From Ignavibacteriota bacterium (lineage in GTDB: Bacteria > Bacteroidota > Ignavibacteria > Ignavibacteriales > Melioribacteraceae), in NCBI GenBank assembly GCA_002698995.1, contig PAAX01000021.1, positions 1 through 32,522 of the forward strand: a stretch of 32,522 bases of DNA. Direction: 5' to 3'. The notes below the pieces were generated by a model, which saw only the letters and a program-made list of their open reading frames with translations, was not told where the DNA came from and searched no databases. Below are positions 1,792 through 6,476 of the stretch, one piece after another (position 1 is the first letter of the stretch; each line of letters begins with the position of its first letter). A program made the position numbers and the translations under genes.

Positions 1792-1994
1792 CAGCGTTCA
1801 GTGTCCAGTAAACAAATAAACGAATAAATTGAACGCAGTTTGTGAAATCCCGCTTTAGCGGGACAAATCAACAAACCTGTCCGCCGTTATTTTGGCGGAT
1901 AAACGCATAAACAAATAAACAGATAAACAAATCAACGAATAAACCCATAAATTGAGTGGAAAGAGTTAGCTAAAATAAAATAAAAAGTATAACC
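1792..1994. repeat. Composite repeat block
   Basis: A CAGCGTTCAGTGT word is followed by the near-exact second copy of the 41-bp segment from the window start (1827-1867), a family A hairpin (1876-1899) and AAACAAATAAACAGATAAAC words. No coding frame of note is present. Confidence 0.8.
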
Positions 1995-2684: not shown

Positions 2685-2855
2685 TTGGAACTAAAAAGAA
2701 AAAATATCAACAGAGGGTATACAAAATTAAGGGTTTGGGAAAAGACAATAGAACTTTATAAACTTACTTATGATCTTACAAAAGATTTCCCTTACGAATT
2801 GAGCAAATCACGCAATAATATTTTAGACGCAGCACACAGCATTAATAGGAATATT

Positions 2856-3144
2856 CACCCAGTCAAATAGTTTTAGATTTTGGAAGATTTTTATTACACA
2901 TATGTTCTTAAAAGTTTAGCAGACAATAAATTTTATACTGGTTATACAAAAAATCTAAAACTAAGATTTGAGCAACACGAAAAAGGATTAGTGGAGTCAA
3001 CAAAACATCGAAGACCCTTGATTTTAATTTATTTTGAGGCTTGCTTGAGTCAAAAGGATGCACTGCATAGAGAGAAATACCTTAAAACATATTATGGTAA
3101 ACTATTTCTGCATAATCGGCTCAAATCTTATTTGACGGGGTAAA
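2856..3144 (+). mobile_element. GIY-YIG mini-element with terminal inverted repeats
   Basis: This 289-bp insertion lies exactly between codons for NI and AEG of an S23 gene. Its ends are inverted: ACCCAGTCAAAT at the left (2857-2868) and ATTTGACGGGGT at the right (3130-3141), 11 of 12 positions complementary. It contains little beyond one GIY-YIG gene. I see no clear target duplication. Exact ends are uncertain by a few bases because 1-3 extra bases lie outside the inverted repeats. Confidence 0.7.
2880..3143 (+). CDS. GIY-YIG endonuclease-like protein, UPF0213-like size
   Basis: An 87-residue single-domain GIY-YIG protein: YYTYVLKSL and FYTGYTKNL correspond to the two Tyr-containing strands, LRFEQHEKG supplies the conserved Arg, DALHREKYLK supplies the catalytic-type Glu, and GKLFLHNRLK forms the end with Asn. 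The length fits stand-alone GIY-YIG proteins (80-100 residues). The start is TTG at 2880. The stop lies within the right end of the insertion. It may be the enzyme that moves its own element, but stand-alone GIY-YIG proteins are also common housekeeping or repair-like proteins, so this role is inference. Confidence 0.85.
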   Translation: MEDFYYTYVLKSLADNKFYTGYTKNLKLRFEQHEKGLVESTKHRRPLILIYFEACLSQKDALHREKYLKTYYGKLFLHNRLKSYLTG

Positions 3145-3381
3145 GCAGAAGGTTATTGCAGAAAAAACTTAAAAGAATACCTAAACTTCTTAAATATTGC
3201 ATTAGGATCATGCGGCGAATTATTATCTGGAATTATAGCATTCAAAGAAATTAAAATAATTTCTGAAGAAAATTTTGAAAAATTAGATGAATTACATTAC
3301 AAAACAGAAAATGAATTAATAGCTTTAATAAAATCATTACAAAATAAACAAAGGGAAGGGAATTGGGAGACCGAATTCTAA

Positions 3382-3504
3382 CCAAATTCGAATACCTGTC
3401 CGCCATCTTGTTGGGTTTACCTACGCAGTAGGCGGATTCCTTTATTTATTCCAATATTCCAGCTTTTATTCCTACAATTTATTAACTATCTATCTAAGAG
3501 CACT
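3382..3504. repeat. Family A hairpin with a nested TACGCAGTAGG element
   Basis: A family A unit (CCTGTCCGCCA at 3395 to GGCGGAT ending 3437) is split in its loop by GGGTTTACCTACGCAGTAGG, a family H element. TTCCAATATTCCAGC words follow. AAGAG at 3496-3500 is a plausible ribosome binding site for the gene starting at 3505. Confidence 0.7.
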
Positions 3505-6089: not shown

Positions 6090-6476
6090 TTGATTGAAAG
6101 CCCTCATAAAAAATTAGAAGCCTGGAAAAAATCAATGGATTTAGTAGAAGATATTTACAAAGTAAGTAAATCGATGCCTACTGAAGAAAAATATGGTTTA
6201 ATTTCTCAAATGAGACGAGCTGCAGTATCTGTTCCTTCAAATATTGCTGAAGGAGCTGGCAGACGAACAATTCCAAAATTTATAAATTTTTTATCAATTT
6301 CAATTGGCTCTTTAAGTGAACTAGACACACAAGTTGAATTGAGTTTCCGTTTAAAGTATATTAATGAAGATAGTTATTCCATACTTTTAAATAAAATTGA
6401 TAAATGTAAAGCATTAACTTATGGATTAAGAAAAAAATTGATGAATAACAAAATTAAGATTGAAAATGGAAAATAA
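6090..6476 (+). CDS. S23 four-helix-bundle protein
   Basis: A 128-residue intact member of the S23 family: HKKLEAWKKSMDLVEDIYKV, then SQMRRAAVSVPSNIAEGAGR, then FLSISIGSLSELDTQVELS. The protein is all helical. It starts at TTG 6090. It lies between pseB and pseC and its last 11 bp overlap the pseC start, so it is probably co-transcribed, but it has no known role in sugar synthesis. S23 genes are found scattered in genomes and within 23S rRNA intervening sequences; their function is unclear. It is the intact comparison for the two broken copies at 1723 and 2685. Confidence 0.85.
   Translation: MIESPHKKLEAWKKSMDLVEDIYKVSKSMPTEEKYGLISQMRRAAVSVPSNIAEGAGRRTIPKFINFLSISIGSLSELDTQVELSFRLKYINEDSYSILLNKIDKCKALTYGLRKKLMNNKIKIENGK

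Follow-up and report, generated by a model that had tools for sequence, protein, structure and literature searches.

An S23 gene in the window (the whole 32,522-nucleotide stretch analysed, from a contig of an Ignavibacteriota bacterium) is split by a 289-bp insert that carries one gene, for a bare GIY-YIG nuclease domain, and whose two ends are predicted to pair as the outer stem of a three-way junction reaching into that gene. We read the insert as a mobile element of minimal size (about 280 bp), a single GIY-YIG gene whose DNA also encodes a fold, with its own nuclease probably acting on the folded strand; we put the probability of this explanation at roughly one half.

The insert and the interrupted S23 gene

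The two half-frames on either side of the insert match adjoining stretches of PF05635 (2685–2867 against profile positions 2–46, E = 3.9e-6, below the curated family cut-off; 3145–3378 against positions 47–102, E = 3e-10) and are therefore one S23 gene (Table 1). The insert is flanked by AATATT and GCAGAAGG and parts N-I from A-E-G in the S23 motif, the junctions reading AATATT (to 2855) / CACCCAGTCAAAT...ATTTGACGGGGTAAA (2856–3144) / GCAGAAGGT. Deleting the 289 bp restores N-I-A-E-G, and the uninterrupted site of an S23 paralogue in the window reads AATATT/GCTGAAGG. The frame inside the insert matches PF01541 (2880–3140, E = 6.4e-15), and since the right end of the insert covers the last GIY-YIG codons, ends and gene share bases.

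An initial annotation, made from the letters alone, had described a 289-bp insert with a single GIY-YIG gene splitting NI from AEG and a downstream S23 half that is still open to its stop, and the profile matches and reading frames bear this description out. It had also placed the insert in no known type of insertion sequence. We agree: by open reading frames and Pfam, the insert carries a single GIY-YIG gene but no transposase of a known type, and insertion is seen without target duplication (below).

Table 1 Features of the interrupted S23 locus and of the predicted fold, in window coordinates
Feature	Position	Strand	Evidence or remark
Interrupted S23 (23S_rRNA_IVP) gene, 5' half, ends ...N-R-N-I	2685..2855	+	PF05635 profile 2-46
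Putative mobile element, 289 bp (CACCC...GGGTAAA)	2856..3144	+	Outermost bases uncertain by a few nt
Element core ACCC...GGGT	2857-3141	+	
P1 left strand (outer stem)	2857..2868	+	Covarying pairs with 3130-3141
P2 left strand (left inner end, into GIY-YIG start codon)	2869..2881	+	Single-strand fold, covariation
GIY-YIG endonuclease gene, 87 aa, TTG start	2880..3143	+	Pfam match, invariant residues, UPF0213/SLX1 similarity, dN/dS
P2 right strand, within GIY-YIG gene	2950..2962	+	Single-strand fold, covariation
P3 left strand, within GIY-YIG gene (L-R-F-E codons), adjoins P2	2963..2973	+	Fold, covariation, synonymous constraint
P3 right strand (right inner end)	3119..3129	+	Covariation; kept outside the protein frame in L153, L160, L162, L167, L169
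P1 right strand, overlaps last GIY-YIG codons	3130..3141	+	Covarying pairs with 2857-2868
Interrupted S23 gene, 3' half, A-E-G..., open to stop	3145..3381	+	PF05635 profile 47-102
Uninterrupted S23 paralogue, empty-site counterpart	6090..6476	+	N-I/A-E-G at 6245/6246

When up to one mismatch is allowed, the end pattern has 40 matches in the genome of the window element and the reversed control pattern has 22; both exact matches are those of the window element itself, so a single copy is seen. Twelve GIY-YIG matches were obtained in this genome at an E value of 1 or better, and the 11 besides that of the window element are at most 48% identical to it. For the recent insertion that the initial annotation had proposed, the comparison set of 57 other genomes contained no member of the same genus. 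Short palindromic intergenic repeats (cctgtccgcc...ggcgga, cctacgcagtagg) lie near the element at window positions 1855–1900, 2470–2500 and 3395–3435.

The GIY-YIG protein and its relatives

The encoded protein is a bare GIY-YIG domain of 87 amino acids, in which Y8, R29 and E65, invariant across a 15-sequence alignment, are presumably the catalytic residues. Its nearest solved relatives by sequence are UPF0213 (1zg2, 1ywl) and SLX1 (7cq2), the SLX1 chains being named structure-specific endonuclease subunits. The gene is under purifying selection: dN/dS was below 1 in 168 of 168 pairs, with a median of 0.23 (90 of 96 loci, stop-free stretches; pairs with dS 0.05–1.2, last 9 codons excluded; the pairs are not independent of one another).

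Using the 15-sequence alignment as query, we found 456 relatives in named genomes and took 80 of them, together with one viral locus, 14 loci from the order of the window genome and the window element, into a set of 96 loci. Of these, 81 were found by protein alone; five of the 14 order loci (L092, L097, L099, L103a and L103b) are biased because they were found by their ends. Among the matches listed, relatives come mostly from Bacteroidota, with many from CPR/Patescibacteria; other record labels include Ignavibacteriales, Cloacimonadota, Omnitrophota, Deltaproteobacteria and Scalindua, with the reservation that metagenome bins can be mislabelled. The nearest named relative of the window element (L141) is labelled ignavibacterial, and viral contigs gave one relative (L221) among 14 pattern matches.

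A second group of GIY-YIG genes shows a different arrangement, in tandem beside a tRNA gene on the same strand (for example, L077 1485–3127), after the tRNA in L077, L078, L079 and L082 and before it in L080, L081, L083 and L085. A tRNA gene lies within 400 bp in 24 of 32 second-group loci. Arrays that we measured comprise 5.0 units of 315 bp at 99% identity and 5.3 units of 450 bp at 98%, and in L077 each unit ends in a 3' fragment of tRNA-Asp in which a small palindrome stands in place of the T arm. These tRNA-linked tandem arrays may reflect an alternative way of life of the protein family to which the element's nuclease belongs.

Paired ends that covary

The element ends were located with a script anchored on CC..GTnnnAT at the left and ATnnnAC..GG at the right, which found them in 91 of the 96 loci; the five without anchored ends (L176, L190, L204, L216 and L076) were dropped. 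Loci found by protein alone had anchored ends in 77 of 81 cases, 72 of those 77 being exact complements. Over all 91 elements, the three variable arm bases (GAA, CAA, TAA, GAG, TAG and GGA types) are exact complements in 85. Run 200 times on mispaired left and right regions, the same script gave 25.8 exact complements on average and never more than 38; the pairing thus persists through changes of sequence. One arm comparison used 82 of 86 loci with arms, leaving out L157, L204, L213 and L076, for which wrong arms had been picked. The 11/12 inverted match that the initial annotation saw between 2857–2868 and 3130–3141 is real and is neither unique to the window element nor due to chance.

The initial annotation had further tied its reading to homologues of the gene carrying the ends, which holds for near homologues (the 77 of 81 above) and fails for more remote GIY-YIG genes in these genomes, which are at most 48–53% identical, lie in many cases beside tRNA genes and are without such ends according to our script. 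The motif it had proposed for finding further copies, ACCC[AC]GTCAAAT, fits the left end in only 8 of 91 elements, and no fixed motif describes the ends. Because the ends covary, a motif is a poor probe for them. A fixed end pattern gave elements of GIY size at 12 places in 11 of 146 order genomes, among them L094, L098 and L102 without complementary arms, and matched 7 of 395 phylum genomes, in which only G000, G039 and G048 look real.

At the outermost bases, one TTCACCC and one TTTACCC end is usual among the 91 elements regardless of gene direction. Left/right combinations were TCA/TAAA in 21, TTA/TGAA in 16, TTA/TAAA in 4 and TCA/TGAA in 1, and a fixed polarity of the ends was rejected, the first two combinations both being common.

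A three-way junction reaching into the gene

Folded as a single strand, the window element gives a three-way junction of stems P1, P2 and P3 with zero unpaired bases between the stems, and RNA parameters return the identical stems (z = −3.19 for DNA and −3.48 for RNA; 0 of 200 shuffles were equally good in each case). In this predicted fold, which to us is the new result, the paired ends are the outer stem P1, while P2 and P3 pair the inner ends with stretches inside the gene.

The structure taken from the window element's own fold was then evaluated on an alignment of 85 elements against slid and shuffled controls. Beyond the five loci without ends, L180, L199, L201, L072, L206 and L221 were left out for script-misplaced ends, a nested insert, a contig edge or unusual arms. 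Across 34 pairs, 89.4% of 2710 cells were paired (shuffles, 78.0), 288 cells were doubly changed (shuffles, 79.0) and the covariation score was 0.269 (shuffles, 0.100), each of the three values being reached by 0 of 500 shuffles. Sliding one strand by 1–3 columns gave at most 47.3% paired cells, 57 doubly changed cells and a covariation score of 0.065. Changes on both sides occur in 21 of the 34 pairs (6 in P1, 9 in P2 and 6 in P3), and 30 rows that are all less than 72% identical still hold 95 doubly changed cells, compared with at most 25 when slid. For example, left GGCAAAT pairs with internal ATTTGCC (L155, L175) and GACAAAT with ATTTGTC (L196); other left ends and internal strands pair as GCTTCAAA with TTTGAAGC (L154) and GCATCAAAT with ATTTGATGC (L179).

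With cut-offs of our own choosing (9 of 12 pairs for P1, 8 of 11 for P2 and P3), 80 of the 85 elements keep P1, 65 keep P2 and 68 keep P3; all three stems are present in 61, so that 24 miss at least one. Both P2 and P3 are missing in 14 elements, 11 of them from the order of the window genome; the window element keeps all three. With DNA parameters, the minimum-energy folds of 55 of the 85 elements contained all three stems, and with RNA parameters those of 47; given the gapped 85-row alignment alone, RNAalifold returned no pairs.

The fold imposes a synonymous cost on the gene. The glutamate codon within P3 is GAG in 55 elements and GAA in 8 (55/63 GAG), compared with 40 GAG and 129 GAA (40/169) for two other conserved glutamate codons summed (P = 5e-19). 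In the group of proteins ending N-R-L-K-x-W (L153, L160, L162, L167, L169), the right inner end TTCAAATCTTATTTGACAGGG is kept despite falling beyond, or out of, the usual frame.

Host sites and orientation

Clustering of the flanks by tblastx, with rough labels, gave S23 (14 + 7 loci), epimerase (11), transposase-like (8 + 6), integrase (3) and four pairs. Some labels had to be corrected: the epimerase label of L208, which follows an APS kinase gene, is wrong, and the transposase-like label is wrong or unsure for L092, which precedes a tRNA_SAD domain, and for L193, in whose flanking frames, as in those of L149, no Pfam family was matched. The RHS label (L146, L159) was given by eye with one weak match (L159, E = 0.0028, below cut-off), and the Y1-transposase label mostly by eye, Y1_Tnp matching only L214 (E = 0.0011) and L162 (E = 0.18) of 10 frames. 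Among the sense frames, Pfam identifies S23 in 17 of the 57 upstream of an element and in 16 of the 60 downstream. Families in the sense frames (37 upstream, 38 downstream) also include integrase, ORF6N, epimerase, many single families and Y1_Tnp, the last in 3 of 57 upstream frames; L194 and L214 are among the Y1-like hosts. Antisense frames gave a Pfam match in 2 of 56 cases, both at L221 (2458–2768), the sole viral locus, which lies antisense in an IS91-type Y2 transposase gene whose profile is split at about 114/117. The elements therefore lie nearly always in host sense, in or beside many genes, with L221 the one clear exception.

Fifteen S23 copies sit at the place N-x/x-E-[GA] (by eye), a conserved insertion site of the kind associated with homing endonuclease elements, while others (L145, L178, L143, L148, L164) lie elsewhere in S23; one S23 copy, L168, is from the cultured species Psychroflexus halocasei. 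In records labelled CPR, several elements lie at start codons and not in coding motifs, L210 before formamidopyrimidine-DNA glycosylase, L219 before hypC and L157 before ftsZ. In Flavobacteriia and some relatives the element lies within the start of an epimerase gene, with another, intact epimerase start behind it (L220 by Pfam). The same order of epimerase-like 5' fragment, element and second start copy was seen in L199 (~2230–2900), L176, L180, L182, L185, L196, L200, L203, L209, L215, L218 and L220; L199 has two epimerase-start/element units in a row.

The nearly constant host-sense orientation and the pairing ends would also suit an intron-like or intervening element that acts in RNA, its paired ends closing the transcript and its excision, by splicing or in the manner of 23S rRNA intervening sequences, sparing the host gene. 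Omission of the insert does restore N-I-A-E-G in both the window gene and L141, and the RNA fold is well below its shuffles (z = −3.48). We nevertheless regard this explanation as unlikely. Known ribozyme cores contain unpaired junction bases, unlike the junction of the window element, and Rfam returned no match at gathering score anywhere in the window, a group I or II intron core included. In L141 the host gene runs into a stop 8 codons past the insert and in L189 after 28 codons, and L221 is antisense. The spacing from end core to host codon varies by site from ~0 to 4 nt (by eye), so a single splice rule cannot serve all sites; splicing by one fixed rule was rejected on these differing junction offsets. 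In its favour, the accessible part of a survey of rRNA insertions in CPR bacteria describes insertions with GIY-YIG genes that fit neither group I nor group II (PMC11270868).

Empty sites, movement and gene-less copies

The initial annotation, which had proposed a very small self-moving element carrying a GIY-YIG gene, had looked to empty sites as a check. Three filled/empty pairs were found, and all three, read by eye, lack the target site duplication typical of DDE-type elements. The second element of L103, compared with empty L236, keeps AAATATAT/TGAACA with a 1-nt ambiguity; L095, compared with empty L248, reads AATTAT, then GAA or AAA, then GAAGC. For the first element of L103, comparison with empty L241 would mean ~4 nt replaced, but the related gene in L236 reads GATTATTTAAATCC at this place, relative to which the junction would be exact. 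L197 and L219 carry elements that are 95.9% identical between flanks only 58 and 57% alike (random mean, 58.7%), and near-identical elements in flanks at random level show movement to an unrelated place. Taken with the end-bearing homologues, these alignments speak for the proposal, and mobility of the element is well supported.

Gene-less copies with the same ends were also found, running from CCC to GGGT over 57–127 bp, some nested in a GIY-YIG gene; they resemble MITEs and, consisting of P1 only, look like derivatives of the element. In two genomes, a copy of 97–98 bp (L112, L114) lies within the GIY-YIG gene at one shared position, the E-K-Y codons, and others of 65–67 bp occur in G001 (L111–L133), G014 (L117) and G145 (L110). 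A pattern search returned 18 gene-less copies in G001, where no GIY-YIG match was obtained at E = 1e-8. Many of them lie in a larger intergenic repeat, where they occupy two separate points and face either way, and may have spread along with it.

Alternatively, the element may be an ordinary free-standing homing endonuclease gene that cuts conserved motifs and is copied by recombination, with a fold that only restrains its translation or ends transcripts. Many targets are conserved motifs, the GIY-YIG domain is present with its conserved residues, and such enzymes are known as homing endonucleases. Protein lineages also tend to keep their host class: the protein tree implies 10 to 12 changes (12 with all labels, 11 without L208 and L193, 10 without L092 too), compared with a least possible 5 and a shuffled mean of ~33, so lineages hold their target class and seem to jump occasionally; the tree itself is poorly resolved, with 5 starred among 93 inner branches forcing at most one origin per host class. 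Even so, we doubt this explanation. Copying by recombination needs matching flanks, and L197 and L219, 96% alike, stand in unrelated ones; a fold that served regulation would not have to place P1 at the very edges of the insert, and would not call for gene-less copies that share these ends. A precedent for homing comes from phage T6, where, in the accessible part of the source, a tRNA-linked segment is amplified by the GIY-YIG enzyme SegB (PMC13096335).

It is more doubtful still that the element is a passenger moved in trans by a host Y1 transposase of IS200/IS605 or RAYT type: the lack of target duplication, the T-rich left flank, the paired ends, the gene-less copies and the Y1-transposase-like genes among the hosts all fit, Y1 transposases acting on folded single strands without target duplication, but a passenger would have no need of a nuclease gene under purifying selection. 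The presence of that gene in all loci does not itself count against a trans-acting Y1 enzyme, because the loci were mostly found by it.

Proposed mechanism and significance

In the mechanism that we favour, an element with its own nuclease, one strand of the element, probably DNA that replication or repair leaves single-stranded, would fold so that its ends meet. The GIY-YIG nuclease would act on the folded structure, and the element would be released or copied; the same nuclease would cut the target sites where the element is inserted. Insertion in a coding gene would break the host gene, and a host promoter would transcribe the element, hence the sense bias. We infer action of the nuclease on the element and recognition of the fold from two features, a bare GIY-YIG domain akin to SLX1 and ends that meet in P1 at the mouth of the junction, which together point to a nuclease acting on its own fold.

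Slightly short of an even chance, in our estimate, is the broader proposition that this is a new class of mobile element, found in Bacteroidota, CPR and other phyla, in which an 87-codon gene and a few dozen bases make up a perfect three-way junction recognised by its own branch-cutting nuclease, so that gene, substrate and ends would be one object. If the mechanism holds, autonomous DNA mobility needs fewer than 300 bases and one 87-residue protein, which to our knowledge is below known insertion sequences and introns with endonuclease genes; we know of no insertion sequence as small, and it would be the smallest autonomous mobile element known to us. The common group of small GIY-YIG genes to which the 456 relatives belong would also gain a function, and a covarying fold inside a protein gene is directly testable.

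Comparison with known systems

We found no description of such an element in the open literature, preprints and most subscription papers being outside the scope of the search. In the portions available, two papers mention GIY-YIG genes in passing only (PMC12455944, PMC8565304), and the CPR survey places all its GIY-YIG genes in insertions of neither intron type, regards GIY-YIG as outside homing spread and, in that portion, describes no paired ends or fold (PMC11270868). Some of the CPR insertions in that survey may be copies of the element described here.

Several systems share single features with the element. Its nearest solved relatives, UPF0213 and SLX1, are cellular proteins, and we do not know of either as a mobile element. 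The 23S rRNA intervening sequences likewise have complementary ends, whereas the element lies in protein-coding genes. Rickettsia palindromic elements are small palindromic inserts in protein genes that stay in frame and carry no enzyme gene, whereas the element carries one. In integron attC sites, as here, structure is conserved over sequence and a folded single strand is used, but it is recombined by a tyrosine integrase and attC has no nuclease of its own.

Members of IS200/IS605 and REP/RAYT systems have a Y1 transposase and separate hairpins at their ends. The element shares with them folded ends, lack of target duplication, a T-rich left flank and gene-less copies; it differs in holding no Y1 transposase, in ends that pair with each other and in being much smaller. 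With I-TevI and the Seg proteins of phages T4 and T6, it has in common a GIY-YIG domain, conserved gene sites and selfish spread. In contrast to these, it has no surrounding intron, its 87-residue protein comes without a separate DNA-binding domain, no need for flank homology is seen, and it is bounded by paired ends belonging to a covarying fold that spans the gene.
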